The notes under the pieces are model-generated. The model had not been told where the DNA came from. It saw only the letters and a list, made by a program, of their open reading frames with translations, and ran no database searches. Shown here in pieces: positions 1,788 through 33,240 of a stretch of DNA of 64,000 nt. Source of the DNA: Sinohyriopsis cumingii (lineage: Eukaryota; Mollusca; Bivalvia; Unionida; Unionidae); contig CM068835.1 of the NCBI GenBank assembly GCA_028554795.2, forward strand, positions 28,646,311 through 28,710,310, in the 5' to 3' direction. Every line of letters starts with the position of its first letter. Position 1 is the first letter of the stretch. The position numbers and the translations under genes were made by a program.

Positions 1788-2097
1788 AGTAGTGTATGGG
1801 GCCACCGTAGGGTCAAGGGGACTTTAATGTTAAAAAAGGTATATCCACTATAGGGTCTATATGAATTTAACATGGGGAATTTAAACATGGATGGGACTGT
1901 AGAGCGTCAAGGGAAAATGAACATGGGAATATATCGTGGGCCTGTATAGCGTCAAGAGGAAATGGATATGAGAGATGGAGATAACACAGACAACAGACAA
2001 CAGACAACACTGATACAACATGAATTTGTTGGTTTTTTTATGCAAGAAAGTCATTTCTTTTCCAGACATATGAGGGACCCTGAAAAGGGCCTTTGGC
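1788..2097 (+). repeat. Left inverted terminal repeat of Polinton copy 1
   Basis: Matches the reverse complement of 16418-16757. It contains three imperfect direct units of about 35 bp with the core AGCGTCAAGGGAAAATGAAC, against four at the right end. Its inner part contains a histone-type stem-loop on the minus strand. Confidence 0.93.
2076..2091 (-). promoter_or_regulatory. Histone-type 3' stem-loop (copy 1, left end gene)
   Basis: Reads GGCCCTTTTCAGGGTC on the minus strand: six paired bases (one G-U) around a TTTC loop, the form of the metazoan histone mRNA 3' hairpin (GGCYCTTTYCAGRGCC). It is followed by CCTCATATGTCTGG and then AAAAGAAATGAC, a purine-rich block like the histone downstream element that pairs with U7 snRNA. 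The end gene's stop codon lies about 11 bases upstream. Confidence 0.7.
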
Positions 2098-2102
2098 TTC
2101 TT

Positions 2103-2840
2103 CTATTTCCTCCACTTCTTCAGCCATCTCCTAACCTTTCCCACTATTCTTGTCTTCTTCTTCTTTTGGGACTCTAACATCCAGTCAGGGCGGCCCATGG
2201 CTCTAAACTTGTCCTGGATTTTGATCCAGTTATGGTTCAGGCCTCTCAACACTTACTTTTTCTTTGTATTTTCTCTTTCTTTCCTCTCCTTTAACCACCT
2301 GTCCTTGATCTTCTTCACTTCTACATCTATCGCCTTTCTCATCTGTTCTTCCGCTTTATTCAGTTGTTCACCAACCCTTTTGACAAAGGGCTACTCTGAT
2401 CATTGCTTTATCTCTTCCAAATAGCATCTGAATTCTATAACCTTGTCCAGAGACTCTTTTATTGTCCCCACTCTGACATAGGGGGATTAATGAATCCTCT
2501 CAACCTCTTCACTTCTTCCTATATTATCCCCTTTATCATCTCCCTGATTAATTTTAGTTGGTTGACATAGGCAAAACTGTTTGTTAACCTAAATTCTCTT
2601 TCAATTCTTTCAACAGCATATTCCCCATCCACCACCCAAATTAAGTATTTCTTAAATCATTAAACAAAGCTGACACTGCCATCTCCTCTGCTTATTCCGT
2701 AGAATTGCGCGAACGATGAACGCTTTGAGTTTTTATATCTAAAGCGTCTTCCACAATCGCCTCCGCTGACAGCTCGTCCAGGAGTCGACTGGCATACCCC
2801 AGATGCATCTGAAGTTCTGATGCTCATTCTACTCATTCTG
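2103..2840 (-). pseudogene. Left end gene of Polinton copy 1 (coiled-coil, basic)
   Basis: On the minus strand the region begins with residues related to LQIHLEYASRIVDELA, as in 1190-1429 and 31840-31905, and ends with a strongly basic stretch (QKKKKTRIVGKVRRWLKKW) directly before a stop codon and the stem-loop at 2076-2091. The middle is rich in Glu/Lys and would form a coiled coil. The reading is broken, so only the position and parts are given. Function unknown; I know of no named family. Presence of the same gene in three places in the window shows it is a real part of this Polinton lineage. Confidence 0.5.
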
Positions 2841-3176
2841 CACTATTGATCAATCAACGATGGGTAGCCAGACTGCTGAGTGTTCCGTATATATACTTGA
2901 AGCACGGAAGTGAAGGAAAACATCACCTAAGACCCAAATCTTACATTACCTATATGATTACCAAAAAAACACGCGGACCTAAAAGAACCACTCACTATTT
3001 TGTACTGACAATCAATATTTTAAAATTGTTGACAAGCGACTTAAAGAAAAGCTTATACACGCACTTTCTTACCAAGATAAAGAATTCATGTGCTAATGGA
3101 CGCACTTCTAATTTTTTCTAACTGACTAACATAGTATAGGCAATGAAATGGTTATTTCTTTTCTAGAGTATGGGGT

Positions 3177-3192
3177 AGCCCTGAAAAGGGCT
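3177..3192 (-). promoter_or_regulatory. Histone-type 3' stem-loop (copy 1, second gene)
   Basis: Reads AGCCCTTTTCAGGGCT on the minus strand: a perfect six-base stem with a TTTC loop. The next bases are ACCCCATACTCT and then AGAAAAGAAATAACC, matching the usual ACCCA spacer and purine-rich downstream element of histone genes. The stop codon of the 105-residue gene lies about 33 bases upstream, a typical histone 3'UTR length. Confidence 0.8.
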
Positions 3193-3225
3193 GATTTTGT
3201 GTGAACGAGGAGCAATGGCAATCTT

Positions 3226-3543
3226 TTATGATCTAAGATTGCGGGTTCGTCTGGCGACAGGCTTTCCCACATAATTGGGTCTGCTTCTTCGGAAAGAGAA
3301 GGAGAACTCTTTGGTGTCGACACCGCATTCGACAAAACCTCTGTCTGGTTCCTGCTGCTCTTGCTGCTGCTGCTTTCTTTGCTGATTCTGAAGTCTGTAC
3401 TTCTCTGTCCATTCTCCTTTCTTCTTCTTGATTTCCTCTCTGAAGAGCTCTTCTCTCAGGTCTTCAGTGACTTTCAACATTCTAACATTGTCCATCTCTT
3501 CAGGTCTCGGTCTCAGACATGTCGTGACCCGATGCAAATTCAC
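3226..3543 (-). CDS. Small Gln/Glu/Lys-rich Polinton protein, 105 aa
   Basis: An uninterrupted minus-strand frame of 105 residues. Residues 15-50 are charged and helical (EEMDNVRMLKVTEDL, then KKKKGEW), residues 51-67 are Gln-rich, and the C-terminus is Arg-rich (FRRSRPNYVGKPVARRTRN). I do not recognise a family. It lies between the left end gene and the capsid gene, reads in the same direction as both, and is followed after 33 bases by a perfect histone-type stem-loop, which argues that it is a real gene with a defined 3' end. Its counterpart in copy 2 is not visible. Confidence 0.55.
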   Translation of the reverse strand: MNLHRVTTCLRPRPEEMDNVRMLKVTEDLREELFREEIKKKKGEWTEKYRLQNQQRKQQQQEQQEPDRGFVECGVDTKEFSFSFRRSRPNYVGKPVARRTRNLRS

Positions 3544-3940
3544 GTAGGCTTCGTTCCGCTTGGCTAATTATGAGCACATCTGCGTAGGAGGATGAGTCAA
3601 TAATGGATGGTCAGACTGGAGACTTCCCGCGTTTATGGGAAAAGCGCGGACGCGAAGGAAAACATCCCTACATGATACCCATAGCAACACAAACCACAAA
3701 CGCATTTTTTCAAAACACAACATTTTTTATTCAAATAATTCATAACTAACAATTCACAATTTAAAAAAAAATATTAACCATTCAATTTAGCAATAAATAT
3801 TGTTTTCAATAACTCTCTATTTTGAACAAGGTTGACAACATCGTGAATGAAATTGAGATTTCCACTCTTGGAAGTCATTGAGTCATTGATGTACACTACG
3901 TTTCCCAGCTAAAAGACAAAAGATAACCATAATGACCCAT

Positions 3941-5311
3941 CTAAAGACGGATAACAGTCTTCCATGGCTTCTCATAGTCTATTATACCTTCTCTCAAACT
4001 GTTAATTTCTATGTTAGTATCGAATTTGGCATATAGGAGGACGTTCACCGTCTGAGGTAGAGGTTCTGCAAAGTGAAGTTCTGCTCGCAGTTGACCAGAT
4101 TTTATAGGGTTTAAATGTCCCTCGTCACTGCCTTGGTTTTGAGTGAAATCACAAGCCCACAAAGCGTAGCCTCTTGCATAATCGTCGTACGAAATGCCGT
4201 GACTGGCGTTGGTCCCTAACTGTCCGGTGGCTTCGTACAGGGACAAGTACGATCTCAAGTAATTCCTGTCACCAAACTTAGGGTCGAAAGGTCGGGTACA
4301 CATGACCTTGCCATCGCTGCTGACTTCAATTTTGGAGACTCTGTAGTGCTTAAGCTGGAATGGATTCTGATCGTGGACTCCGTTGAGTGCTGCATTGCTC
4401 ACGATGCCAACGATTAAACGTTTGGGTAACTGTCCTTGGAAAAGATGATCTTCGATCTTGGATCGGAGTACAGCAGGAATAGTTGATGTTTTCACTTCCA
4501 CACGTCGTATCGGATACTTGGCGTTCGTTCTGCTCAAAGTGTGACTGTTGTCGTTTCCCACTTTAGGTAACATTTCCACATTTCGCACTTACAGTCTGGC
4601 TTCTTGAATGATAGTTTTGTACTCGGTAGCATGGACCATCAAATGGAATGAGGTACTGCTACGATTCAGTCTCAGGCGGATATCCACACCGTTCAGAAAA
4701 TACTTCTCTTGCATCCACATGTCCAAATGCAAACGATCCATCAGTTCAAAACTTCGTCCTTGCAGGATTTTCTTTTTACGGTCGTTAAAACATACATTGT
4801 GAGGATTGTCATCTGCTGTCAGGGCTGTGTCGTTAAACGTTCTCACCTCCTGTCTCAGCTTTCCATACCACGCAAGCATCCAGATGAGTGTTCTTGCTCT
4901 CTTTTCCGTACGTCAAGAGACAAGGTACTCTCGGTAAGGGTAAGTAACCATGCTACTGCTGACCAGTTTGTTATTCAAATACAAATCCACTTCACTGAAC
5001 AAGGACTGCATGAGATTGTTGACGGGAGCTACTCTAACATCGGCTTCTGGAGCAGTATCGTCCGTTTTCATCACTTTGACTTTCAAGTACAGGTAACTGC
5101 AATTCAGATCGATGTAATCTTCGGTTTGTCATTTGATTTCAAACTCGATGGGAGCAGAATCCGTGAAAGAGGAAACGGGATGAAATTCGACCCATTGGGA
5201 TTCTTGCATCGTCATCATGGTGGGTAGCATGACAAACAGATCCAGTTCCGACTTAAAACAGGCGCAATACTCTTGGTGCATCATTTCTGTTTCTAATTTT
5301 GTAATAATCAA
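3941..5311 (-). pseudogene. Polinton major capsid protein (double jelly-roll), broken
   Basis: The beginning (about 5311-5130) carries HQEYCACFKSELDLF and SQWVEFHP, typical of the start of Polinton/adintovirus major capsid proteins, often annotated in animal genomes as F54H12.2-like. The later part (3941-4588) has LPKRLIVGIVSNAALNG, a Tyr/Asp-rich segment (YDDYARGYALWACDFT) and VNVLLYAKFDTNIEIN near the C-terminus, also typical. The protein would form the trimeric shell unit of a virus-like particle. Only separate pieces are open, so I give the span and parts. A conventional AATAAA (3726-3731) lies on the minus strand about 215 bases past its end. Confidence 0.85.
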
Positions 5312-5501
5312 AAACGTCTAAGTCTCGAGCAGTTCTTCTTTTCTTTGTCTTTCTAGCTTGAGAAGTGTGAAGACTTCTAAAGGGGTGTTTTCTTCGTCGT
5401 CTCTTTATGCCTTGTCCTTGCTGTGGCGTCGGGAAGCAGAAATGCCTGACTCGGTAGCGTTCAGGGCATTTATAGGAGTGTCTCGTCGGCCCAAAATGTC
5501 T

Positions 5502-5744
5502 TTACCATTTTATCAGCAAGACATTGTTGCCTGCCCTCAAGAAAACTTCTTTAAGGTTTTCTTTGTCAATGATGACATTTTGGAGACATTCTTTACCGTG
5601 TGTCAATGCCGCATCTTTCAATGCATACAATCCTCGTGTCACCATCGGTTTCAACACCAGAGTCACCGAACGAAAGGCTGATTTAAACATATCCCCTAAA
5701 CCATGTCCTCGCTGTCGAGCAACGCATCGGTACACTGGATACAT
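5502..5744 (-). CDS. Small structural protein of Polinton type, 80 aa
   Basis: Begins MYPVYRCVARQRGHGLG and continues with a hydrophobic-basic helix (MFKSAFRSVTLVLKPMV) and a second amphipathic stretch. Proteins with this YPVYRG..RGHGLG start sit next to the capsid genes in other Polintons and adintoviruses and are thought to be minor virion components. Gene position, between the major capsid gene and the minor capsid gene and on the same strand, fits. The C-terminal part may not be original. The role is inferred from context only. Confidence 0.6.
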   Translation of the reverse strand: MYPVYRCVARQRGHGLGDMFKSAFRSVTLVLKPMVTRGLYALKDAALTHGKECLQNVIIDKENLKEVFLRAGNNVLLIKW

Positions 5745-5836
5745 GACTTACAATTCGTTACAGAATCGTTTTCGAAAATGGAGTTTCACCGTGACTTTCC
5801 CTTTGAAGAATGGAATATTTTGTCCCAAATCTCCTT

Positions 5837-6526
5837 TCATAGCAATGTTGTCAGTGTCCAAATACGACTTACTGCCGTGAAAATAGTGAGAACGTACAAA
5901 TTCGCAGTGTACGTGATCGTGTTTGCACCTTCATGGTCATTGGTCGTGGTACTGTCGACTTTGAAAGGATTGACACACAGTAACAGCACCGAGGTGTGTC
6001 CCACCACATTGTACTCCACCACGGAGTACACAAAGATCGAATTCAGTCCTTCATTCAGTCCAACCGGGTTTCCAAAAGCCCTGTAAAAATTCATATAACT
6101 GTTGAACTTGGGGATCAAATTGTATGCGACCATCTGTGGATGTCCACCCAAAATTTCAAACAAACTACCATTAAATCTGAGGGACAATGTGTCCGTGTCC
6201 TGACATTTGATCATGATGCGATGAGTCACTTTATGGTACTCAATCTTCAGGTTTCTTTTGGCTCGGTTGAGGGCTTTGCCAAAGGCTAAGTCGAATCTGG
6301 CCGCAATATTGTCCACCAAATGTTCGCCACTAAAATAAAACCCTGACGGAATTTTCAATGTGTAGACACTGAAGGATGAATTGCTTGCTGGTCTTGAGTC
6401 CCCTAAAAGCCCGATTTTATTTATTTCTTCTTGCAACTGGGCATTCAGGATTTTCACCTGGAAAGTGTTTTGCTTCTCGGTGACGTTTTTGATTTGTGTC
6501 GGGTTAATGAATTCCAACAAAGTCAC
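5837..6526 (-). pseudogene. Putative minor capsid (penton-like) protein region
   Basis: A 229-residue minus-strand frame with alternating beta-rich segments (SSFSVYTLKIPSGFYFS, RIMIKCQDTDTLSLRFN) and the motif GGHPQMVAYNLIPKF; the related text continues upstream to about 6650. Beta-strand-rich, without catalytic motifs, and placed between capsid-associated genes, it fits the minor capsid (penton) slot of Polintons. I cannot align it to a named family by eye with certainty, and its ends look altered. Confidence 0.55.
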
Positions 6527-6657
6527 TTCCCAATAGGCTTCCTGATCTAATTGGATGGCCTGAGGTAATTTAACTGTTTAACAGCACAACTTGTTGTTGG
6601 GAAACACCTCCATGGAACTGTCACTGGGTAAGGTTAAGTACAATTGGTTGTTATTGT

Positions 6658-7059
6658 TCATAATTCTAGAGTTCTGTGGCTGTCTGAGGGGTTACTGGAA
6701 GTTAGAGGCGTGTCTCCGCCGAAAATGGGGTTGTTGGTATTCGAGTGGTGACTGACAATGGACGTAAGATTCCCATTGTTCCCGTTCGAGGAAAATTTCA
6801 GGGTTGGATTTGGAAGCAGATAACCAATGCAACTGCTCAATAAAATGGTCCACAATTGTTTGTCTCCTTGCTGCAAACTCAGATTGGCAATGGCTGCACT
6901 GATGACAAAATACACCACAAAGATTTGGCAGAAAAAAGCGATTTGCGTTTTAGGCACACGTTCTCCACACCACACCCACAAGGGTTGTTTCTGTAAATCT
7001 TGCTGAGAAGAACTGGGTGAAGGATAAGTAGCAGTAGCTGAGTCTGTGTGAAAGGGCAT
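6658..7059 (-). CDS. Small Polinton membrane protein
   Basis: From the internal Met at 7059 the frame gives 133 residues. The N-terminal 40 are Ser/Thr/Gln-rich; residues 46-95 hold two hydrophobic segments (TQIAFFCQIFVVYFVISAAI and LWTILLSSCIGYLLPNP), followed by a polar C-terminus with NGN repeats. Proteins with the KTQIAF.CQ...Y.VI and LWT.LLSSS.GYLLPNP pattern are common in animal Polintons/adintoviruses, lie near the integrase gene, and are expected to sit in a membrane. An earlier Met exists at 7113 but that part overlaps the integrase tail. Function unknown. Confidence 0.65.
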   Translation of the reverse strand: MPFHTDSATATYPSPSSSQQDLQKQPLWVWCGERVPKTQIAFFCQIFVVYFVISAAIANLSLQQGDKQLWTILLSSCIGYLLPNPTLKFSSNGNNGNLTSIVSHHSNTNNPIFGGDTPLTSSNPSDSHRTLEL

Positions 7060-7114
7060 GATGGTCACTTCTTTTATAGTCGATGACTTGCGAAGCGTCG
7101 ATACAAGAATCAAA

Positions 7115-8110
7115 ACTTGGTGGACATCCTTTCCAACGTACTTTGACTTCTATGACACGTCGTTTGCCTACATTACGGGTTCTGCGTTCGAGAATGCTTT
7201 CGATGTCGTACATGTCGTCTTCTTTTTTGGTGACACGTTGTAACTCGGGTAAATAAAACGTTCTTTTTAACACTTCTCCGTTCATGTCTTCCAATTTATT
7301 GACGATAAGATGATGACCATGCACCCGTCCAGTGACACGAAAATTTCGGTGGTCCAGTTAGGTAAGTAACCTTTGTCAAAAGTGCGTTTGGTTTTGCCAA
7401 TGGGCTCCCAATTTCCCACAGCCAACACATCACCTTTCTTGGGGACAGCCACCGTCGGGGACGTACCAAACAGGCGACCAGAAACCAGCACTTCGTTGTC
7501 GGGAGTCACTTTTTGCGGGGCACGACCAATGCTTCGATGGTGAGATTGGTTGTACGCTTGCATAAGGTACGGTAAGATGTCAATGTACTTGAGAGTTTGG
7601 TGATGCGTAAAATATTTCCACATGCGTTCGTTCAAAGTGCTTTGGTTTCGGGATTCTCGGTGGTGAATATTACGTTTCTTTAATTCTTTTTGTAAAACTT
7701 GGTCCAGAAATTCGGTACCTTTGTCCGTTTGCCATCGAAAAGGGTGACGATCACATTGTTTCAACACCCGTTGCTGGGCTCGCACTAACTCGTTGCTCGA
7801 TTTGGAAGTTAATGGCACGACCCAGGCAAATTTGGAAAAGACGTCGATGACACAAAACAAATATTTGTAGCCACGATTGTAGCTGGCCAAATGTGAGGCA
7901 TCGGCTAAATCGGCTTGTCGTCGATGATCCATGCCTTCCACTTGGGTGCGACTTCTGGAAAACTTGTGTCGAATGGGTTAATGTAAAGTGTAGGTAGTTT
8001 GATCTTGTAACCATCGTTGCACTTGAGGCAAACGGAGACTTTTCAGCCGGGTTTTGGCAGCACGATACAACTTCTGAACTCCTCCGTAGCCTGCAGGATG
8101 GGATGGGTCG
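7115..8110 (-). pseudogene. Polinton integrase (rve core plus chromodomain), broken
   Basis: The main open part (7282-7941) shows the DDE core: Asp in RRQADLADASHLASYN, YLFCVIDVFSKFAWVVPL, a second Asp in WQTDKGTEFLD, and Glu in STLNERMWK, followed by YNQSHHRSIGRAPQKVT. In the neighbouring frame (about 7115-7215) is a chromodomain: YDIESILERR ... EVKVRWKGCPPSFDSC. Upstream (7941-8110) there are hints of the N-terminal zinc-binding part. The family joins element ends to target DNA and makes 6-bp duplications; the chromodomain is thought to guide it to chromatin. The reading is broken. Confidence 0.9.
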
Positions 8111-8152
8111 TAAAAAATGCTAGCTCACACCTTTTCCATTTTGGGGGATTTG

Positions 8153-8768
8153 TTAATAAGTCACCCACTCTTCGCTGATGCTACTTTGGACGGGGCGAAA
8201 GGGTGGGTTGGAAACGGATTTATGTATCCGATGGGCCACGGCAGTAGAAGTCGAAGCTAGTGGTGGAGGTGGTACTGCAATGGCTTTGGGCTTCTTTTCT
8301 CTTTTTACTTCTGGTTTCCCGTCTTTGTTTTTCACTTCTATTGAAGGAGAGGTGGAGATCATCTTTTTAACGCAAACTTTCATTTTATCTCGTTGGGGTG
8401 TGGGGTAATGGGTCAACAAGAACGCTGCAATCTTACTAGAAATGAGAGCTGCTGACGCTGTTTGAAAAACTTCTCGTATCTCTTCTTCCTCAAGCTTTCG
8501 TAGTGTGGCGTTTCTCATGACCACTGGGAATGGTGGTGGTTGTGGGGGTGGTGGTAGTGGTGGTGGTGGTGGTGGTGGGGAATGGACCTTTCTTCAACGT
8601 CTTGAAATCTTTCAGAGTGGGTAGATCTGTTTGTGTTGTAACTGGGACATCTCGCTCAAATTGGGATTGGGAGGCAAATGCGGGGTCCACTGTTCTTGCC
8701 AACAATGGTATTCCATCCATCGTTTGTAAGGCACTTAAGCTAGTTTTCTTCCTTCCATTCGATGTCAA
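8153..8768 (-). pseudogene. Thr/Pro-rich Polinton protein region, function unknown
   Basis: Two overlapping minus-strand frames. One (8490-8768) ends in a long Thr run encoded by a TGG/GTG-type simple repeat at 8530-8578; the other (8153-8524) has a short helix (TLRKLEEEEIREVFQTASAA), a Lys-rich middle and a Pro-rich stretch (VPPPPLA). It lies between the integrase and the small basic-protein genes. The repeat is unstable and probably explains length changes. No family recognised. Confidence 0.4.
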
Positions 8769-8805
8769 GGGTCACGTCTGAGATCTTAGACTTCAGATGT
8801 CCTTT

Positions 8806-9130
8806 TTATCTTGCTCCCACGAGTCCTCCCAGCATGGTTCCCAAGACTCCTTTCAGCAATGGTCCTAACAATAGTGTCAAAATTCCTCCACCTTGGACCA
8901 ACATCTTCTTCTTTTGACGAATGGGGATTTTCTTTTGAACCATTTGGCGAAGAACGTGACGATGTTCGCCTAAGCATTGTTTCTGGTATTTCGACAAAGG
9001 GGTTGTACCTTTCAAGACGTTCAAACAACATTCGCACACGGTATCGATGACATCTTTGGAGAGGCCGTTTGAATTAGTTTTGTTCGCATGGGTGGAGAAG
9101 CTTTGGAAAGGACAGACAACATGTCCCCTT
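8806..9130 (-). CDS. Small conserved capsid-associated Polinton protein
   Basis: The frame at 8806-9039 reads CECCLNVLKGTTPLSKYQK, then a basic RHVLRQMVQKK...RQKKKMLVQGGG segment and a Gly/Leu-rich hydrophobic C-terminus (ILTLLLGPLLKGVLGTMLGG). The pattern (Cys-Glu-Cys...NVL.G..PL...K, basic middle, LVQ.GG, hydrophobic tail) recurs in Polintons and resembles small adenovirus core or membrane-lytic proteins. It probably belongs to the particle. Upstream residues to about 9130 look related but are less clear. Confidence 0.6.
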
Positions 9131-9256
9131 ATTTGACTAAACGAAGAGGCAGTTCTTTCGTTTTCTTTCCTTTGGGTTTAGATGAGGGATGTTTTTGTTG
9201 GGGTGAAATCTTTGAGTCTTCAGGAGAACGAAAAACACTGATACCCATGCTTTGTC

Positions 9257-9660
9257 TCAGACCATTTTTTGTACTGGAATGCGTCGCCACTGATTGTCTT
9301 TACGTCGTATCAACTTGATGGCAGGCATCACGCGTCGTGGAGGGTTTCGCAACGGACTAAATCGAGTCATTTCTTGCTTGGCCAAATCCATTAAACTCTG
9401 TAACATGCCCGATCTCTCTTGGACTTTGATTTTGGGAGCAGGTACATTGTGAGCAGCTTCCACTGCTACTAAAGAGGAGGGTGTGGCCACTGGAGGAGAA
9501 GTTCCTGGAGACACGGGCTTCCATGGTGTCATCAACGGAGAGGTAGATGAACCTGAGGCTACCGGAGACGCAGTCATCGTCGTTGCAGGTCGTGGTTTGC
9601 GAATGTAAGGTTGCGTCATGGCCGAAGTGCCTCTCTTGCGGGTAGAGGCTCTTTTCTGGG
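9257..9660 (-). CDS. Basic Ser/Pro-rich core-like protein
   Basis: Part of the minus-strand frame 9257-9796. Its N-terminal 60 residues are Arg/Lys-rich and overlap, in another frame, the Lys-rich tail of the histone-like gene. The middle (about residues 60-115) is Ala/Pro/Ser/Thr-rich, and the C-terminus has RSGMLQSLMDLAKQEMTRF and PPRRVMPAIKLIRRKDNQW. The composition fits a DNA-condensing or capsid-lining protein, as in adenovirus core proteins. I cannot tell whether it is a separate gene or once belonged to the preceding one. Confidence 0.4.
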
Positions 9661-9665
9661 GGGCT

Positions 9666-10130
9666 TTACTTTTTCTGTGGGCTTTTCTTTTTCTGAGGTT
9701 GTAACCTGGTCTTGATACCGTTGCTCTTTTTCTTCTTCGGGCTTCGTTTGGCTTTTTTGGGAGTGGCTTTTTTCTTGGGGAGACCTTTGGGGACATTATG
9801 ATCCCATCTTAAAAGTGAGCGAATGATGACACCTCCTAAAGTACCGCTGCCTCCAGGTTTCAAAATGATTTGCTTTCTAGTTTGAGTGTCGATGCGGGAA
9901 TCGGCCAGTTGGGTCAAGGCTACATTGTTTCTATCAAAAATACGTATGGTTGGATGATGAGTCTGAATGATACCTTGCAATAATTGACGTGCTGTCAGCG
10001 TAAACCATCGTAAGACTTCTTTGAGACTGGCTTCGCTGACACGAGCACGTATTTGTGGAATTTTTTTGCGACTGACGCCACACAAGGCACGAATTAATTT
10101 GACGGAAAGATGAGACTGAAGGGATGTCAT
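9666..10130 (-). CDS. Histone-fold-like protein with Lys-rich tail, 154 aa
   Basis: Uninterrupted frame starting 40 bases after a TATA box (10170-10175). Residues 8-18 could be helix 1, 19-30 a basic loop (GVSRKKIPQIRAR), 31-58 a long amphipathic helix (SEASLKEVLRWFTL then ARQLLQGIIQTH), 60-67 a short strand (PTIRIFDR) and 68-78 helix 3 (NNVALTQLADS). This is the order of a histone fold; the strand-helix join resembles TRIIPRHLQLA of H2A, and GGSGTLGGVIIRSLL (93-107) resembles the GGVTIAQGGVLP region. Residues 115-154 are Lys-rich with TPKK and SPKK motifs, as in H1 and some sperm histones. Lies directly after the ATPase gene. The fold is my reading by eye; a generic basic virion protein is the alternative. 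Confidence 0.5.
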   Translation of the reverse strand: MTSLQSHLSVKLIRALCGVSRKKIPQIRARVSEASLKEVLRWFTLTARQLLQGIIQTHHPTIRIFDRNNVALTQLADSRIDTQTRKQIILKPGGSGTLGGVIIRSLLRWDHNVPKGLPKKKATPKKAKRSPKKKKSNGIKTRLQPQKKKSPQKK

Positions 10131-10169
10131 GTTGACACTGTATGAGACAAAAGAAAAGTGTCTGAGGTT

Positions 10170-10175
10170 TTTATA
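10170..10175 (-). promoter_or_regulatory. TATA box for the histone-like gene
   Basis: CTATAAAAACC on the minus strand, about 40 bases before the ATG at 10130, at the distance expected for a core promoter with a very short leader. The same spacing is seen before the ATPase gene. Confidence 0.6.
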
Positions 10176-10249
10176 GATTTGGTGGGGTCAAGTCGAGGAC
10201 GGAGACGTGTACAGTGCTGAAACAAATAGGCACGAAATCACAAATAATC

Positions 10250-10879
10250 TGGGGTAGTGGGTTTCAAATCGATGAGTAAATAGGCATGTGGAGTTTGAGT
10301 GGCATCGTCTTCCGCCTTAGAGAGCCAAGGCGTTCTTAACTGTTTGACTAAGACTTGCACTTGCGATTTATCTCGAGAGCTTTTAAACAAGACCACGTAA
10401 TGACTATTGAGACTGATGGTACGATAGGCGTTACTTTGTTGAAACTAATTTTGGGTGATGTAAATGACACTGACATTACGATGATGCCCTTTGCGCGTAA
10501 ACCACAGTTTAATTTCTTCTTCGTCTTCTCCTAACATGTCGTCGAAAATGACTAGATGGGTTTGACAGGGGTCAGATACGATTCCGTCGTCTTCGTTTGC
10601 AATGCCTTCCACAAACACGATGGAATCACCTTGACTTTCTTGCAAGAGGCTGTACGCCGATTGCCACTCTATGTAACACCACACGGGTGGACGATCGATC
10701 AAATGTTTATATTCGATCAAACGTTTGACAAATTCGGTTTTGCCTGAACCACTAGGTCCAGCAATGAGCATGTTAAAGCGATGACGAAGATACAAAGCCT
10801 CCCAACTGGCACGATCTAAGTGTTCGTCGATGACTTTGAAAGTGGAGGAAGAGGGAGCAGAGACAGCAAAGGTAGCCAT
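10250..10879 (-). pseudogene. Polinton packaging ATPase (A32/FtsK-like)
   Basis: The open part (10445-10879, 144 residues) has FNMLIAGPSGSGKTEFVKRL (Walker A, about residue 41-48) and THLVIFDDMLGEDEEEIKLW (Walker B, about 108-116), then GHHRNVSVIYITQN, the sensor-like segment. Related coding text continues to about 10250 in another frame (VSIVITW..., AYLLIDLKP). The family pumps DNA into capsids. It starts 48 bases after a TATA box (10927-10933) and is followed by the histone-like gene on the same strand. Confidence 0.88.
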
Positions 10880-10926
10880 AGTGTCAGGAATGTCACTTGT
10901 GACACGAAGGCAAACAAGACAAGAGG

Positions 10927-10954
10927 TTTTATACTTTTTCAGGATACGTTTATT
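10927..10954 (-). promoter_or_regulatory. AATAAA of the 47-aa gene next to TATA box of the ATPase gene
   Basis: On the minus strand AATAAA (10949-10954) ends the small upstream gene, and 16 bases later TATAAAA (10927-10933) begins the ATPase promoter. This tight packing shows separate short transcription units, and shows that this gene uses ordinary polyadenylation rather than the stem-loops found at the element's ends. Confidence 0.6.
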
Positions 10955-11037
10955 GAGGTTTCAAAAATAAACACGAACAACTAAAATACACAAAAGCCAA
11001 ATAGCTATGTACAACGATAAAATGTACATGAAAACGA

Positions 11038-11181
11038 TCAAAGTGGAATAGAAACAAGTTTCTGTACAACAATTGTTTGGTCATAAGATGTCCTAGTGAC
11101 GGGGTGTAATGTTCTGACAGGTTTTACATGAGGTATTGTCACAGAAGTGTCCTTCAGAACTGGTCTTTCAGGTATGTTCAT
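11038..11181 (-). CDS. Small intact Polinton gene, 47 aa
   Basis: ATG at 11181, stop at 11038; 47 residues beginning MNIPERPVLKDTSVTIPHVK and ending VVQKLVSIPL. Basic, Pro/Thr/Val-rich, no hydrophobic segment. A TATA box lies at 11283-11288, no other ATG comes first after the likely start site, and an AATAAA follows at 10949-10954, so a complete small transcription unit is visible between the polymerase and ATPase genes. No family recognised; the whole unit could also be a decayed larger gene. Confidence 0.5.
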   Translation of the reverse strand: MNIPERPVLKDTSVTIPHVKPVRTLHPVTRTSYDQTIVVQKLVSIPL

Positions 11182-11282
11182 GACAGTCCTCTGAACTTCT
11201 TTTGTGCTTCTCTGAAAGAAATTATCTTGTTCGTTTGGTCTTGGTACTCACAATACACTATTGATTTTGGACATTGTCCCTT

Positions 11283-11288
11283 TTTATA
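11283..11288 (-). promoter_or_regulatory. TATA box for the 47-aa gene
   Basis: Minus strand CATATAAAAAGGG, about 100 bases before the ATG at 11181. It lies just past the end of the DNA polymerase gene. Confidence 0.5.
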
Positions 11289-11354
11289 TGCTGACCAATA
11301 TCGACGTGACCGTACGGCAAAGTGAAGTGATTTGGAAGAAGCACTCACTTCCTA

Positions 11355-14300
11355 TTACACGATTTGATAGACTTTTGCCAAGGGATTACTGACGATTTGA
11401 TGAGTGGGTAAACGTACAATAATGTTCGGTTGGTGAGTGGTCACTTTAAAGTTTTCATCCTCTCCAGATTGCAAGGCTTCTTTCAATACCCCAAAGTTGA
11501 CCACTCGACTGGTACGATAATTCAGAGTCAGTCCTTTCACTTTACACTCGGTGGGCACTTCTCCTTTTCTGTCCCGGTATTCGTAGCCGTAACCTTTAAG
11601 TCCGCCACTAGTAAAACTTAAAATCTTCTCGTCGGTTTGCTCATCTGTCCAGGCCCATAAACGGTCTCCTTCGATGTCAGGGTGACGTTGACCTGGGCGA
11701 TCGATGTAGATACAACTGTCCATGTTAAAGTACAGGACACTATCCCCTAACAGTTCTAAAGCTCCGTACAATTTTAAGCGAGCATGGGCTGTCACATAAT
11801 CCGTAATGATGACATTTCCAAATTCGTCGGCTTGTACAAAGTCCAGTGCTTCTTCTTAATTGACTAAGATCTAATCATCACGTGTTTAATGAATCATCTG
11901 GAAGTAGCGGGAAGGTTCTGTCAAATATTCTATCTTGGGTAAACACGATCGTTGTGCCATTTTGCCCCACAAACAATTTAACATCACGTTGGCAAATGAT
12001 CGCCTGCCTTTAGTTTTTCTCGATGTGGTCCAAAGGGACGCCTTCTTGTTCCCAGTATTTCACTTTGAATGTATTTTCATCTTCGGAATTGTGACACCAG
12101 GAAGGATAGCCACTGGCTTTTTGTTTCAGTTTCAAAAAGGCATCCATGTAGTCTGCGAAAATGCCTTCTGAGTCGGTTCACTCATGTGATATTGTTGTGT
12201 ATTGGGAAAGTGGTAGATTTCGTACACTTCTAACAGTTGTTATCCCAAGTCCGGAGCCTTGAACAATTCCACGCTGACCCACGTTACCGTCAAAGCGCGT
12301 TCTTCCTGGGTGTGATGGCAAGGCTGGTCTTAATTGCACGTTTCAGCACAAGTACGGCGCAAGGGAAACATCAGTTTGTCTTGGCAATGGAAGGTAACAA
12401 GGGATGGTACAAGTTGGTGGGAGGCAAGACTTTGCACTTGATCAACCCTTCGTATTGTCGAATGTTGTCCAGGCCGATGTGTTCAGTCAGCAAATGCAAT
12501 GCGGATGCCCTGCAGGAAAGCGACAATGTTTTCACACGTAAGGAAACAGCGAGCACACGTCCAAGTATTTGATTTCTTCTCCTTTCTCTTCGTCAGCGTG
12601 GTACAGAAAATAGGTGGCATTTGTCCGTCCTCCGTACAAACTGTCCCTCGGGTTCAGGGGTTCCATCAACTTGTAACTTTCCACGATGCGTTTAAACATG
12701 GGGTCGGTTTTCAAATGTTGATCGTACTCGTGTTCCCACATTTCCACCACTTGGTATCCTTGCTGTTCTAACTTCAAACGCCTCTGACATGTGACCTGGT
12801 ACAAGTCTTCCATGGTTCGTTGTAAAAACTGATTTTTAGTGCCACGTTCAGGGTAGCAGACGGGACATCCGTGAAATAAGCAACCGTTAAACTCGTACAC
12901 GATCGTGGGGTTTTCTAAGTCCCAGCCATCCACCGAATACGTTCCAATGGTCTTTTCGCCCCTTCCTTTGCGGGCATGCTGAATCCATTTGTCTTCCTTG
13001 TCGCATAAGTAATGTAACCAGCGTAGGGCTTTGACCGAGTATTGACGTTTGACAAAGTTGGTCGTTTAAGGACTGATGACAGCCAGGGTGAATCGTTGTC
13101 GGTACACTAAGGAACACGCTTTGGCAATGGTACAGGCTTCTTTCCAAGGATCGGCCCCTCTGTGTTTCGTGAACAGTTCTCGAAATTTTGCACAGCAACG
13201 CCGTAAAATGTCCACGTCGGAACGACAATATTTTAACATTTCTTCCTGAAAGTCGAAAGGGTCCAAGGCGTGAGTCTTTTACCAAACGTAGAAAGCTTCT
13301 CGTTGTTCGGTACGCATGCTGTCGGGTTCGTAATCGTCAGCCTCATGCAAATGGGGTAGAACGGCATGTTGATTGGCTTCCGTATGGACAAAGTGTGGAA
13401 AGTAGCTTTTGGCCATTACTGTCATTCCAAACCTTTTAGGCAAACAAATTCCAAACCTTTCGATTCAAAGGCATTTTTTCTTGTGTGACATGGCACAATT
13501 GGTACGTATGCCTTGTACACACGTAGGGCACAATCTCAGGAGTTGACAAGCACATTTCTGCTGTGAACCTTGTGTCTTTAGATGTTGGTGGTAACAACCA
13601 GGGCTGACAAAAGGGCGCTGACAAGCTGGAGAATGCATTCGTTCTTGTCCTTGGTCCAGACAGGGATGAGACGCCAAACATCCTGAGCATTTCGATCCAC
13701 AATGTTTGTGTCGCTCTCGATTTTTATAGCCATAGTCACATTTCTCACAGTAATATATGTATCCCAGGAATCCGGTGATAATGGTAATGGCATTGAAATG
13801 TTCATTGTGATGATAGACGTGAATGTATTTTCCATCTTTAAAATCTTGGCCTCGAAACAACAGAGGTCCGCGCACTTGTTGAGGGTGCACTTTCAAGATG
13901 TAACGTGGAGCTAGGACATCTTGCAATTTTTGCATTTCTGGAATGCCACAGGGTGTGTCTTTGGACAGGCCGGCTTGTTGTAACAGGAGTTCTGCTTCAT
14001 ATCGTTGTTTGGCTCAGTCCGATTGTCGAATGTTCTCCCAGACTCTTTTTCCATTGTACCGTGTCGTTCTTGTTGTCATAGGTTCGTCCCACCACGATAG
14101 CCCTGGCTAAACACATCTGGCCTAAAGTGTTGTTAATTCGGACGAAGCTCCTTTTGGTGTTGCGAAGGTCGTCCACCAATAAGACTTTTTTGCGTCCAGT
14201 CCCTTGAGGAGGAGAGACGTGGGTCATGGACAGTGTGGCTTTACCGTCGGTGATGTGAAACTGGTCATTGGATTGTTGTATCTGTTGAATCTTGTCCATG

Positions 14301-14766
14301 ACTTTGGAAGGTGTCAGTTCTGCGGGACTGCTAAACTCAATCCAAACAGGGGATTTCAAGCTGTCGTGAGGTAAAGTCTCAAGCGATCGTCTTCTTTGGC
14401 TTCACATTGTCGCTTTAGTGTGATTAACAAAGAATCTCTTATCTCGGTGATGAAACCTTCTGTTTTCTTCAACGGTACGTCGGACTTGAAATCTTTAAAA
14501 TTCACCCTGTAAGTGCAAGCCGTGGTTTTAAATTTTCTAGAGGAGCGTTTTTCCGTCTCTCGAATGTGATATTACTTTTCAGGGTTTTCTGGTGAACTTT
14601 TGCTAGGTGTATACTCTCTGGGTCTGGATTCTGGTTCACTCGAGTCATCTTCAAAATCACTGGCATGAATTTGTGCCAAGACTTCAGGTATTGTACGAGG
14701 CGATAGATCACGTTTATGCCATTTACTTTCTTCTCCTTTCTTCGCGAATGGATGTGATCGTTTCAT
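11355..14766 (-). pseudogene. Polinton protein-primed DNA polymerase B, broken
   Basis: Several minus-strand pieces of one gene: a Ser/Arg/Lys-rich start at 14766; KKVLLVDDLRNTKRSFVRIN (about 14120-14190); a Cys-rich part with paired CxxC motifs (13465-13935); GWDLENPTIVYEFNGCLFHG and, near 12540, YLDVCSLFPYV (polymerase motif A, normally DxxSLYP); and near 11700 LYFNMDSCIYID (motif C, normally YxDTDS), followed by SGGLKGYGYEY and the C-terminus. The family copies the element with a protein primer. Length and gene position are normal for a Polinton; the reading is interrupted in many places. Confidence 0.92.
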
Positions 14767-14814
14767 CTTGACTGCAAAATGTCAAATGACTACTTGTTAT
14801 ACGCCATGGGTCAC

Positions 14815-14845
14815 TTTATATCCATGACAGCCCAGCGTATATAAA
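14815..14845. promoter_or_regulatory. Divergent TATA boxes between polymerase and zinc-knuckle genes
   Basis: TATAAA on the minus strand (14815-14820) lies 49 bases before the polymerase ATG at 14766. TATATAAA on the plus strand (14838-14845) lies 56 bases before the ATG at 14901. The two boxes are 17 bases apart, a compact two-way promoter. Confidence 0.65.
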
Positions 14846-14900
14846 GGGTGTGTGTCTTACCCTTCCACTATTAATTTTCACTGTCAAACGGAGTAGAACG

Positions 14901-15944: not shown

Positions 15945-15994
15945 GATTGAAAACGGTGTCGCATTGACTGACTGCACACAAACGCTAGCGCCTC

Positions 15995-16119: not shown

Positions 16120-16163
16120 TAACTGCAGTTCGCTGCATTTCTTCACCTGTTGTTGTCACCAAC

Positions 16164-26819: not shown

Positions 26820-27131
26820 CAAAATGAATGCATGATTTGTTACAGTGATAGTAGTTTTAAGTTGATATAGGTTCCATATGAGAACATGATGTTCGGGCCT
26901 TATTTGCAAACACTGATATTCATGGTGGTTATTTAACATAATATGCTCGTCAGCAATTCCAACATTTTCTCAAAATCAAGTGGTGATGCAGAACTAGTAA
27001 CTTCTGATCATGTAATGTATATAAGATAAGTACACAAAAGCCGATTCTATGCAGAAAAATGGGATACCACGATACCATAGAACCTAACATATCATAATAG
27101 CCTACCATATATCTTTTCGAGGCATAGGATT

Positions 27132-27147
27132 GACCCTGAAAATTGCC
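27132..27147 (-). promoter_or_regulatory. Decayed histone-type stem-loop (copy 2, left)
   Basis: Reads GGCAATTTTCAGGGTC on the minus strand: TTTC loop and outer pairs remain, two inner pairs are lost. It is followed by AATCCTATGCCTC and GAAAAGATATA, the same downstream block as at 33250-33260. It sits 3' of the basic end gene, at the position matching 16424-16439 in copy 1. Confidence 0.5.
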
Positions 27148-28238: not shown

Positions 28239-28254
28239 GGTTCTTTTCAGGGCC
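28239..28254 (+). promoter_or_regulatory. Histone-type 3' stem-loop (copy 2, second)
   Basis: Reads GGTTCTTTTCAGGGCC on the plus strand: all six positions pair (two as G-U), TTTC loop, then ACTGAATTCTTT and AGAAAATAGAGAC. Counterpart of 15607-15622 in copy 1. Confidence 0.7.
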
Positions 28255-28479
28255 ACTGAATTCTTTAGAAAATAGAGACTACTCAAAGATTGCCAAATGA
28301 AGTAAAACTTAAATCCATTTTGTCATAATGTTTGAACAAACTACGTGTATGAGTGTAGGTCCTTATACAAAAATCATGTCCAAGAGGGACTTACATTTTT
28401 TTCTGATACATTCTCTCCTTTTGAAAATCACAATGCATATTTCAAGACACAACACAAAAAGTAATTTGTCTTCTTCTTT

Positions 28480-30605: not shown

Positions 30606-30859
30606 ACAATATATTTGTTGAAAAGTCCCAGATATAATTCTCAAGTCTAAGTGTTAGCCAAACAATTATAAACTCATTGGCTGACGATGCCACTCAGACA
30701 CTTCGTGGGTATTTACTCGTAGATTTAAATCCCATCATACTCGATTATTTGCGATTGTGTACCTACCTGTTTCACGACTAGTGCCAAAAGGAGGGTAAAT
30801 CGTTTACACGTCACTATCGGCTTTAAACACTATGAAAAACCTCTTATACTCATAGTCGT

Positions 30860-31100
30860 CTACAGAACCTACTTTCCGTCTCACCTTCCAGTCAAATTGA
30901 TTTGAGCCCTGTACGGCATCTGTTGATAAAAAGTCCACAAATCCGTACCCGTGTCTCGGAAGCCAGTCTCAACGAATTTTTACTATTGTTTACGGTGACA
31001 GCGCCGGAGAAACGATGGAAAACAGCTGCTATTGTGATGCAATTTATGCCGGCTTAAGTGTATCGACGTTCGAAGAAGATCTCGTGGCACTGAAACCAAT
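30860..31100 (+). pseudogene. Histone-like gene of Polinton copy 2 (remnant)
   Basis: Matches the N-terminal half of the 9666-10130 gene: SHLPVKLI..ALYGI against SHLSVKLIRALCGV, and RTRVSEASLNEFLLLFTVTA against RARVSEASLKEVLRWFTLTA. It follows the ATPase remnant, as in copy 1, so this gene is a stable member of the lineage. Confidence 0.65.
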
Positions 31101-31829
31101 CAATTAATACAACGATTGCCTGTTTGTTACTAAAAACCCTTTGAACAATTTTATATTATTTTGAAGTTATTGATTTGATCCTTGTATACCAACGTCAAAA
31201 TGTATAGATCTTTGATTTTCATATATTGGATGATACAAAATTTGTTACAAGTTACTAGGACTCACTAGGACTCAGAATCTTGGGTTAAATTTAGGAAATC
31301 AATGTACACGTTGTACTCTAAATTTAAAATTGAATGAATAAATATTGATTTGTTTTAACTATAACTGATTGACCTGATTGCACAGGTGGCTTACACATTA
31401 TTGACTTTTCCATTCTCAGACATGCACAGAGAAGTATTTGGCCAATTCCCACTCGTCTAGTAGTCATATCATCCGAAAGGTTTTTGCGCGCATGGGACCA
31501 GAGTGGCACCATGTGTGTGGTTTTAATCCTCACCGGGCTTCTTATGTGCGATACACACACTATATTATAATGGTTGTGCATGTGTGGTTCAATTCCCACT
31601 CATTCTAAATGACTAAATGACTAAATCTGACTAATTTAAGCTGCATACTTAGTATGCATAAATGGTGTGAGAGCGTAACTCTGATTCCCTTCCGCACAAT
31701 CAATGAATTAGTCCACTGTGTGGACACAAGATGGTCGTGCACGCCAGATGGGCAAAACGGAACTTAATTCAAGTAAAGTCAATTCAGTCTGTCTACCCAT
31801 TGTTGACTAGTCAACGTACAATGAATGAG

Positions 31830-33220
31830 CCGTATACAGAAACTGTTACAACTAAAGATGCAGCTGGAATATGCTCGCCGAGTCCTTAACGAACTGGCCA
31901 TGTAGATAATATGGAAGCTGAGAAGAGAAAACGACTTTCTAGGGCAAAACATTCCAAGAAAGAAGAAAGAAGATGACACGAGAAAAAGATACTGCTTCAT
32001 CGCATAAGGCGACAGACCTGTCAAATCTAGCCTGTGGTAAAGGCACCAGCAAAATCGCACCAACTGCCACAAATAATGGTCGCTGTCCCTCCAATACAAA
32101 ACTGGGACCTGGAGCTGGAGCGTCAGCGGCAAGAGTTGGAGCCTCAGCGATGAGAATAACAATTACCACAACACCCACAAGGACATCGTATAATTCAGAG
32201 GGAAGGAGTCTTCACAATCACTAAACGGAAGAATGAAATTCTGAGGCCACTGAAAGCCCCTCAGCACTCCCAATCACCATTATTTGTTGTGGTGGAGATA
32301 GATGGAGGCTACGATGTGTTTGTGGTGTTAAGCCTGGGAGATGCGGGCATGAATCGGGTTCACTGAGGAAAATAAACCTGGGCCTTGTCAGAGCCCAAAG
32401 ATCTCCAGAAAAGAGAGACTTATCAGTTTGCCAAGATATTTGTGTATGGACGTGTTTCTTTGTGTATGTATGAGTTTTCCCGCACAACAATTTGTTTTCC
32501 CTTCTGAGTGTGTTTGTATGTGAGGGGTTAATGTGGGTCTATAAACACTCACTTTGCATGTGTGAAAGTGTGTGTTTGGTATGTCTGAATATGAGGGTCT
32601 GCATATGAGGGTTTAGTGGTGTGATTATTAACACTTACTACCCTTATTTGTATGATGGGGTATTGTGTAGATTGGTTGTTTAATTGTATTTAAACTTTAT
32701 AAAAAATATTTTTCTTTGTATAGTAGGTGTTGTATAGTGTGTTTGTATATCTTTGTAAAATGCAGTTGAAAGAGTTTCTTTTTAGTCCTCGCTACTATCT
32801 CGTTTTTGATGTTTTGTATGTAAAATGTGGTTTTGTGTGAGTTGACGTTTTCCTTCACGTCCGTGCTTCAGTTTATTAAGATACACACTTGTCCGTCGGT
32901 CACCCTTGTTGACTCGACAACACTAAACTTATGTCAGTGATTGATTTACATGAAGCTTGGTAGTGGATGGTGGATGTGGAATATCTTTTAGAAAACAACA
33001 TAAGAATATTGGAGTTACCAAGTCACCCAGTACCATGTGACAACAACTGTCAGCCCTAGAAAGAACCAAGGGCTTGTAACAAATTTAGGAGGATAGGCTA
33101 TCCAGACTATATGCCTGAGGATGGAAACAGGGATGGTAAGAACAAGATGAATTTCCTCCAAAAACTGAGAAGACGGTTGAAAAGCTGAAGGAAATATAAA
33201 AGAAAGTCAAGAAGAATCTC
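31830..33220 (+). pseudogene. Coiled-coil end gene of Polinton copy 2 (remnant)
   Basis: Begins with KLLQLKMQLEYARRVLNELA, matching the end gene pieces at 1190-1429 and 2750-2830, and ends in a basic part (GNINSRKSRRISTAF-like text at 33180-33225) directly before the stem-loop at 33225. The frames between are broken. Confidence 0.5.
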
Positions 33221-33224
33221 AACG

Positions 33225-33240
33225 GCCTTTCCCAGGGCCA
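33225..33240 (+). promoter_or_regulatory. Histone-type 3' stem-loop (copy 2, right end gene)
   Basis: Reads GGCCTTTCCCAGGGCC on the plus strand: six paired positions (one G-U), TCCC loop, then ACTAGAATGTCTC and GAAAAGATATAC. Counterpart of 2076-2091 in copy 1. Confidence 0.65.

Follow-up and report, generated by a model that had tools for sequence, protein, structure and literature searches.

Histone-type 3′ stem-loops at the ends of Polinton genes in Sinohyriopsis cumingii

Four short genes at the ends of a Polinton family in Sinohyriopsis cumingii, A and B at one end and C and D, which diverge from each other, at the opposite one, appear to close with a histone-type 3′ processing signal that would give tail-less, S-phase-biased mRNAs, a reading of the sequence to which we assign a probability of about 85%. 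Directly seen are the anatomy of the module (a 6-bp stem, a UUUC loop, ACCCA, and GAAAAGA 13 nt past the hairpin), a position beyond stop codons, agreement with the host histone signal, and conservation and abundance in one genome. These observations support the histone-type 3′ end interpretation put forward in an earlier note on this DNA.

Results

The window, that is, the whole stretch of 64,000 nt analysed here (GCA_028554795.2, CM068835.1 28,646,311-28,710,310, from a genome of 2.9 Gb), contains two decayed Polintons of identical A/B/C/D layout with four hairpin modules each, eight in total, copy 2 being inverted relative to copy 1. The boundaries and core of copy 1 are as follows.

1781..16764, no strand: Polinton copy 1, with terminal inverted repeats (TIRs) I7, I3, I1 and I8 at its ends
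1781..2099, no strand: left TIR, copy 1 (arms I7/I3/I1/I8), with hairpin A at its inner edge
16416..16764, no strand: right TIR, copy 1, with hairpin D at its inner edge
3941..4588, minus: end of the leftmost core gene, copy 1, AATAAA 209 nt past the stop, without hairpin
7282..7977, minus: retroviral-type integrase core, copy 1 (PF00665, E 1.3e-10)
10445..10960, minus: A32-type packaging ATPase piece, copy 1 (PF04665, E 9.2e-8, 32.3 bits against a cut-off of 22.8)

Pfam profile search of the interior of copy 1 thus gave an integrase, an A32-type ATPase and a weak match to family B DNA polymerase, the last a single piece of 18.8 bits, under the Pfam cut-off of 25.8, in a broken copy. The integrase has 556 relatives (best 75% identity), with a chromodomain in most of the 120 relatives listed; the window's own integrase copy is broken, and the chromodomain is known from relatives of 73-75% identity. 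The leftmost core gene we take, by position, to be the capsid gene; no Pfam model matched it as a capsid, and its Pfam matches were weak and unrelated. No 6-bp target duplication at 1781/16764 was clear by eye in the flanks of copy 1.

The hairpins and their purine-rich blocks lie at these places.

2076..2091, minus: hairpin A, copy 1, at the 3′ end of gene A (RF00032 23.6 bits)
2056..2062, minus: purine block (HDE-like) of A, copy 1, 13 nt past the hairpin
3177..3192, minus: hairpin B, copy 1, first pair A-U, not G-C (RF00032 29.2 bits)
3157..3163, minus: purine block of B, copy 1, downstream of the hairpin
15607..15622, minus: hairpin C, copy 1 (RF00032 29.9 bits, E 1.7e-4)
15587..15593, minus: purine block of C, copy 1, downstream of the hairpin
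16424..16439, plus: hairpin D, copy 1, one broken pair (RF00032 23.4 bits)
16453..16459, plus: purine block of D, copy 1, downstream of the hairpin
33224..33239, plus: hairpin A, copy 2 (RF00032 17.6 bits)
33253..33259, plus: purine block of A, copy 2, downstream of the hairpin
32380..32395, plus: hairpin B, copy 2, two broken pairs, place predicted from copy 1, absent from the RF00032 matches
32408..32414, plus: purine block of B, copy 2, 12 nt past the hairpin
28239..28254, plus: hairpin C, copy 2 (RF00032 21.3 bits)
28268..28274, plus: purine block of C, copy 2, with a single base change
27132..27147, minus: hairpin D, copy 2, two broken pairs, absent from the RF00032 matches
27112..27118, minus: purine block of D, copy 2, downstream of the hairpin

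All seven hairpins that the earlier note had described are present where it put them (the one given as 33225 starts at 33224); its count of seven overlooked an eighth, at 32380-32395(+), the copy 2 partner of the hairpin at 3177. Searching the window with the pattern GGCYCTTTTCAGRGCC at no more than three mismatches returned 10 matches against 0.59 expected (maximum 3 in 100 shuffles), namely the eight hairpins and two unrelated places (9647 and 44808). None of the eight reaches the RF00032 cut-off of 34 bits; at a relaxed threshold six are found with 17.6-29.9 bits, in matches starting at 15582 (E 1.7e-4), 3152, 2052, 16419, 28234 and 33219 (E 6.6), those at 27132 and 32380 not being listed. 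The purine block claimed for each hairpin is there as RAAAA(G/T)A in all eight, at 13 nt (12 nt for 32380), where the probability of finding it at one of those offsets from a random place is 0.0028. The further suggestion that pairing maintained through G-U exchange betrays selection did not hold in the window: the covariation score was reached by 117 of 500 column shuffles and 87.5% of cells are paired compared with 87.2% in the shuffles, so the window's G-U exchanges alone are no proof of selection.

Intact modules abound in the genome. Among the RF00032 matches scored genome-wide, 75/75 lie above the cut-off of 34 (34.5-45.6 bits), a list that is partial, since host histone hairpins also pass the cut-off and are missing from it. 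Of these 75 loci, 74 have ACCCA after the stem and 71 have RAAAAG at 13 nt. An exact 21-mer covering hairpin and ACCCA, GGCCCTTTTCAGGGCCACCCA, occurs 13,559 times, and the reversed pattern not once. Once the 64-nt module is masked, flanking sequence matches the window's Polinton at 75/75 RF00032 loci and two host histone loci at 0/75, and 40/40 sampled 21-mer sites, all from the first 6.7 Mb of a single contig, likewise have Polinton flanks; extrapolating from these 40, the bulk of the 13,559 perfect hairpins is presumably Polinton.

The 75 and the 40 loci had been chosen for good hairpins. In a further test, for which a hairpin was no criterion, we took from a 1-kb stretch at each of 20 gene-C sites the 16-mer that scored best on the strand where one was expected. 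At 20/20 neighbouring gene ends this 16-mer was a hairpin, 1,051-1,108 nt (~1.08 kb) from the C hairpin, 18 with six pairs and 18 with the RAAAAG block at 13 nt, while one base shuffle per stretch gave a best score of 10 of 16. A second hairpin with block, not chosen by RF00032, was likewise found in 8/8 3-kb loci (four six-pair, four five-pair). Hairpins recur at matching places among family members in this genome. In a single RF00032 scan of 12 Polinton sources, 12 Polinton matches passed, with up to 45.6 bits, above two host histone hairpins (35.9 and 37.7); the cut-off was missed in that scan by 7/8 second hairpins and by the hairpin of locus L145. Neither of the two outcomes that the earlier note had named as refuting, covariance scores at the level of shuffled sequence and a lack of hairpins at matching places in relatives, was encountered. 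RF00032 had no match in 8 Polinton contigs from other sources, and none of the five that were scanned for TIRs had a convincing pair.

The host's own histone signal provides a direct comparison. Tandem histone arrays are present in the host (150 of 662 candidate PF00125 matches scored), and two host histone hairpins, one after an H3 gene and the other adjoining, have the form GGCCCTTTTTAGGGCC followed at 13 nt by GAAAAGA, so that the Polinton purine block fits that of the host histone genes. The Polinton modules could in principle be dispersed histone retropseudogenes or a histone-derived repeat with Polintons merely nearby, as the host's arrays would allow, but the masked flanks match Polinton at every locus sampled, the loop is TTTC in Polintons versus TTTT in the two host hairpins, and interior stretches near 4/5 sites match the Polinton core, two of them with integrase; we consider this origin the least probable of all those weighed, and close to negligible. 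A pattern search for the host U7 snRNA gave 21 matches versus 38 for a reversed control, with no convincing 3′ hairpin in the 20 matches inspected.

The gene frames that bear on the position of the hairpins are these.

3226..3567, minus: gene B open frame, copy 1; stop positioned as in relatives L012 and L016
15582..16058, minus: open frame containing gene C, copy 1 (first Met 15944), which continues through the hairpin
16164..16411, plus: gene D, copy 1 (decayed); a short promoter region shared with the divergent gene C separates the two

The earlier note placed the hairpins on the coding strand, 11-33 bases past stop codons; several decayed window copies are ambiguous in this respect, and the gene-C stops of relatives support it. 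Gene A of copy 1 ends in KKWRK and a stop 11 nt before its hairpin, and its relatives have the stop 15-60 nt before the hairpin in 11/12 cases. In copy 1 one frame has its stop 33 nt before hairpin B and another reads through, the distance being ~32-36 nt in L012 and L016. The stop of gene C lies 16 nt before the hairpin in copy 2 and 21-40 nt before it in 45/46 genome loci, and that of gene D lies 12 nt before it in both copy 1 and L010; a gene D end motif was found in 7/20 loci, with the stop 7 nt before the hairpin in four, at 67-69 nt in two and one frame open (these counts covering only loci with a recognised end motif). Copy 1 gene C seems to have lost its C-terminal part and stop, so that its frame runs through the hairpin: by eye, the C-terminus of its relative P0121 (208 aa, 56% identity, E 5e-28) is kept in copy 2 and missing in copy 1. 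The short C/D intergenic region holds TATA boxes and ATTGG motifs. Neither the gene B nor the gene C frame of copy 1 has a Pfam match, histones included.

Read-through frames such as those of copy 1 B and C, and one frame yielding similar peptides at all eight window places, could indicate that the module encodes a conserved C-terminal peptide (approximately K/T-A-L-F-R-x-T-x-x-S-R-K-E/D). For gene C this is contradicted by the stops before the hairpin and by the varying frame of the hairpin with respect to the gene (22/20/3 for the three frames among 45 loci), which together leave hairpin C untranslated, and the P0121 protein ends, by eye, near the gene-C stop position. In 19 D mates, compared ungapped, the spacer is conserved less (0.80) than the hairpin (0.97) and GAAAAGA (0.97), with outer flanks at 0.48-0.57, and the same type of signal, equally spaced, follows a host histone gene, making a coding motif highly improbable. 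In gene B the hairpin's first pair is A-U in copy 1 and in 4/5 relatives (L012, L013, L014, L016; A-C in L009), a change from G-C on both sides by which the pair is kept.

Two of the four modules lie at inner TIR edges, as might be expected if the hairpin acted as a DNA or generic RNA element (in replication, packaging or transcription stop) and resembled histone signals by convergence. Against this, stem, ACCCA, 13-nt spacer and GAAAAGA fit the histone signal, spacer and block fit that of the same genome, and at recognised gene ends the module is mostly past the stop and in coding orientation, B and C included, which do not adjoin the TIRs; such convergence is very unlikely, if less so than a coding role.

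The histone-type signal had been proposed to stand instead of ordinary polyadenylation signals; AATAAA or ATTAAA within 150 nt downstream is not enriched, occurring in 37/115 loci versus 37.4 in shuffles, but is not depleted either. In the window AATAAA lies 46 nt past hairpin 33224 (A, copy 2) and ATTAAA 45 nt past 15607 (C, copy 1), and backup polyadenylation is therefore possible. The mRNAs might then usually be polyadenylated at such sites, with a histone-derived hairpin that only tunes stability or S-phase translation, and in bdelloids, histone variants have signals of both types (PMC2642717); the locus counts give no sign of a kept polyadenylation signal, and we regard this as unlikely, though the most plausible of the alternatives. 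The copy 1 core genes are without the hairpin module and presumably use ordinary polyadenylation, although AATAAA is found within 500 nt after the end in only 1/8 core-gene ends checked.

Discussion

Under the histone-type reading, host SLBP would bind the Polinton hairpin during transcription, the U7 snRNP would pair with the GAAAAGA block, and the pre-mRNA would be cut after ACCCA. In histone pre-mRNA the U7 snRNP cuts 4-5 nt past the stem-loop, and ACCCA precedes the cut (PMC7026596). The resulting end-gene mRNAs would have no poly(A), be stable and be translated mainly while the cell replicates its DNA, a timing that could benefit an element bringing its own DNA polymerase. What we infer is that SLBP and U7 are used, that poly(A) is missing, that the mRNAs are timed to S phase and that the element benefits. 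It is probable, at somewhat lower confidence than for the signal itself, that this Polinton family took over the host histone mRNA pathway, tail-less SLBP- and U7-dependent end-gene mRNAs tracking DNA replication and early or accessory functions being timed to host DNA synthesis.

If true, the histone 3′-end pathway can be borrowed by a mobile element, and a self-replicating transposon is directly linked to S phase. With 13,559 perfect hairpins, Polintons may even draw on SLBP or U7 at the expense of histone genes, and data from poly(A)-selected RNA would under-represent Polinton end-gene transcripts. The reading makes a precise prediction, transcript 3′ ends at ACCCA, testable with existing RNA data types.

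The elements resemble known Polintons/Mavericks (with adintoviruses as relatives) in their chromodomain-type integrase, A32-type ATPase, long TIRs and length of ~15 kb, and possibly in a family B polymerase, matched weakly. What sets them apart is a histone-type 3′ signal after each of four end genes; in a term search, the text of a study of vertebrate Mavericks (PMC8097293) contained none of the terms histone, stem-loop, hairpin and polyadenyl-. The module itself is like the histone 3′ UTR stem-loop (RF00032) with its downstream element, in its 6-bp stem, 4-base loop, ACCCA and block at 13 nt. Were the reading right, no other non-histone class of animal protein-coding genes would, to our knowledge, end in this way. 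Genes C and D diverge from the short TATA/ATTGG region, each ending in a hairpin, an arrangement that we take to resemble divergent replication-dependent histone gene pairs; unlike in those pairs, no Pfam family, histones among them, was matched by the copy 1 frames of genes B and C. Unlike histone 3′ stem-loops, the Polinton hairpins end non-histone mobile-element genes, and unlike histone arrays they exist as thousands of dispersed copies.

Two Polintons with the same four hairpin modules

Both decayed Polintons of the window carry four copies of a module in which a 6-bp hairpin is followed by an AC-rich spacer and a GAAAAGA-like purine block, placed at the 3′ ends of short end genes (A and B at one end, the divergent C and D at the other), and the layout is identical between the two copies.

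Features of the window
1781–16764: Polinton copy 1, delimited by terminal inverted repeats
7282–7977: integrase core of copy 1 (PF00665, E 1.3e-10)
10445–10960: A32-type ATPase of copy 1 (E 9.2e-8)
About 27,100–33,300: remains of Polinton copy 2, in opposite orientation to copy 1 and more decayed
2076 (copy 1) and 33224 (copy 2): hairpin A
3177 (copy 1) and 32380 (copy 2): hairpin B
15607 (copy 1) and 28239 (copy 2): hairpin C
16424 (copy 1) and 27132 (copy 2): hairpin D
39804–41222 (−): DDE transposase frame outside the Polintons (PF03184, E 4.5e-33), which we take to be of the Tigger/pogo type

A piece of family B polymerase in copy 1 gives a weak match only, and relatives of its integrase, at up to 75% identity, contain a chromodomain. 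The seven hairpins listed by the earlier note are all present, but the count is eight, hairpin B of copy 2 (32380) having been overlooked; it lies where copy 1 predicts. A search of the window with the hairpin pattern gave 10 matches against 0.59 expected, two of which (9647 and 44808) are unrelated to the modules, while the Rfam histone 3′ stem-loop model (RF00032, cut-off 34 bits) detected six of the eight hairpins below its cut-off and none above it. The purine block begins 13 nt after the hairpin (12 nt for B of copy 2), for which the chance is 0.0028 per place.

A profile built from the four modules of copy 1 recovered three copy-2 modules at 37.2, 35.3 and 32.7 bits, the last being hairpin C, with the next place in the window at 11.8 bits; the fourth module, whose spacer is one base shorter, scored 9.2 bits, under three other places. 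Best scores in 40 simulated windows averaged 12.2 bits with a maximum of 32.4, about that of hairpin C of copy 2, and 100 further windows gave a mean of 11.6 and a maximum of 21.7. The earlier note had argued for selection from the pairing retained between the copies; pairing within the window is no better than in column shuffles, so we dropped in-window covariation as proof. Both copies are decayed, and selection would not have been provable from the window by itself.

Hairpin modules across the host genome

We searched the window's own assembly (2.90 Gb, 1138 contigs) with RF00032. All 75 scored matches, part of 589,472 candidates, pass the cut-off (34.5–45.6 bits) and are spread over many contigs; the list is partial, since two host histone hairpins (35.9 and 37.7 bits) pass the cut-off yet are absent from it. 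Host histone genes, with at least 150 scored PF00125 matches among 662 candidates, mostly form tandem arrays located on different contigs or at different places. When the surroundings of all 75 matches, with the module replaced by N, were compared with the window's two Polintons and two host histone loci, all 75 matched a Polinton at E ≤1e-5 and none matched a histone locus.

The exact 21-mer of hairpin plus ACCCA occurs 13,559 times in the genome, and its reversed control not once. Polinton flanks surround 40 of 40 sampled sites, drawn from the first 42 listed, all on contig C1 and within its first 6.7 Mb (the two excluded were D mates near an included site), and by extrapolation from this sample most copies would belong to Polintons. 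Interior stretches 6.5–8.5 kb from five 21-mer sites matched the window's Polinton core in four cases, two of them with an integrase 88.6–93.5% identical by piece to the integrase P0001; the fifth, at locus L170, matched nothing in the window. Two hairpin loci on C1 (L092 at 1.15 Mb and L111 at 3.08 Mb) are 99.75% identical across 1.2 kb, and other loci 97–99%, indicating either recent spread or segmental duplication.

Conservation at sites not chosen by their hairpins

Within the host genome, hairpins stand at matching places in other members of the family, as the earlier note's reading predicted. A second hairpin with its block, not selected by RF00032, was present in all eight 3-kb loci, with six pairs in four and five pairs in four; a single one of these hairpins scores above the RF00032 cut-off. 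For gene D, we took a 1-kb stretch at its expected end from the first 20 gene-C sites and, on the strand where the hairpin was expected, kept the top-scoring 16-mer. A hairpin was found 1,051–1,108 nt distant in 20 of 20, with six pairs in 18 and the block at 13 nt in 18, while the control of one base shuffle per stretch reached a top score of 10 of 16.

We compared 19 non-redundant D mates, leaving out one of the 20. Mean pairwise identity is 0.97 for both the hairpin and GAAAAGA and 0.80 for the spacer; the ten bases preceding the hairpin give 0.91, the 20 bases following the block 0.81, and positions further out 0.48–0.57, the outer values being depressed by the ungapped comparison. The first stem pair of the gene B hairpin is A-U in four of five relatives and in copy 1, and G-C in the other genes.

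The modules lie beyond stop codons

In one frame the eight modules of the window read as similar peptides, and a coding motif therefore had to be excluded. The gene-C end motif was recognised in 46 of 115 loci, and a stop lies 21–40 nt upstream of the hairpin in 45 of these, the frame being open in one; within these 45, each of the three frames relative to gene C is represented at the hairpin (22/20/3). On these gene-C stops and frames we reject a coding motif, and read the hairpin module as untranslated. Likewise, a stop precedes the hairpin of gene A by 15–60 nt in 11 of 12 motif-bearing loci (the frame continues in one), and that of gene B by about 32–36 nt in two Polinton loci, L012 and L016. 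Gene D is mixed: among the seven of 20 loci with a recognised end motif, the stop is 7 nt upstream in four and 67–69 nt in two, and the frame is open in one. In locus L010 the stop of gene D lies 12 nt upstream, and a search for protein relatives of gene D found none. Judged by eye, P0121, a 208-aa relative of gene C (E 5e-28), has its C-terminus near the pre-hairpin stop of copy 2, and gene C of copy 1 appears to have lost the C-terminal end that both show.

At 14900–15180 (+) a short frame, in which two CCHC zinc knuckles can be recognised by eye, heads towards hairpin C from the opposite side and is kept in another Polinton locus, L011. Genes A and B have a promoter block in common, TTTTCCTTCRCKTCCGYGCTT (2920, 3662 (−) and 32848 (+)), which suggests that the end genes arose by duplication of a single unit. 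About 220 bp (15944–16164) separate the divergent genes C and D and contain TATA boxes and ATTGG motifs that copy 2 retains in part; the arrangement resembles that of divergent histone pairs. E2F-like strings were not used as support; they are scattered across the window, and in this uncontrolled listing 2 of 42 places fall close to the promoters of genes A and B.

Other sources and novelty

Two histone-like hairpin patterns had no matches in IMG/VR, nor did integrase and gene-C relatives yield a confirmed hairpin there. Polinton-type integrases (34–47% identity) also occur on eight contigs from other sources; these were binned with prokaryotes (Limnohabitans, Nomurabacteria, Ignavibacteria and a mussel symbiont) and are probable eukaryotic contamination. 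RF00032 gave no match on these eight at E up to 10; the Polinton ends are probably absent from them, because the five scanned for inverted repeats had none, or short ones at 71–76%. The contig from the mussel-symbiont bin (L008) has a twister-P1-like ribozyme match at 14146–14210 (+; 28.9 bits, E 0.044, cut-off 67.2).

We found no joint report of Polintons or Mavericks and histone-mRNA 3′ ends in the literature searched, which excluded most subscription journals; both mentions of ‘histone’ found in PMC11071296 refer to other viral proteins. Polintons and histone 3′ ends are each known, and within that literature we did not find the two combined.

Likeness to the histone 3′ end

The earlier note set the hairpins in place of polyadenylation signals; such signals occur within 150 nt downstream at shuffle frequency (37 of 115 loci versus 37.4). 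Core genes of copy 1 lack the module and presumably use ordinary polyadenylation; AATAAA occurs within 500 nt of one of eight core-gene ends checked in copy 1, 209 nt after the leftmost gene.

Past the stem, 74 of the 75 matches read ACCCA, and PMC7026596 places U7 snRNP cleavage 4–5 nt past the stem-loop, with ACCCA preceding the cut. A pattern search of the genome did not find the host U7 snRNA. Beyond the sequence itself, the probable course is that SLBP would bind the hairpin of the end-gene transcript and U7 snRNP would pair with the purine block, the RNA being cleaved after ACCCA. Such an mRNA would be histone-like, lacking poly(A) and abundant in S phase, as the earlier note proposed, and end-gene production would coincide with host DNA replication.

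In a single RF00032 scan, Polinton modules above the cut-off scored 35.6–45.6 bits and two host histone hairpins 35.9 and 37.7. The hairpin after a host gene that we take, from its sequence, to be H3 and the neighbouring hairpin of that locus both read GGCCCTTTTTAGGGCC, with GAAAAGA after 13 nt. Compared with these host histone hairpins, the Polinton modules have the same stem, spacer length and block, and differ in one loop base and in their flanks.
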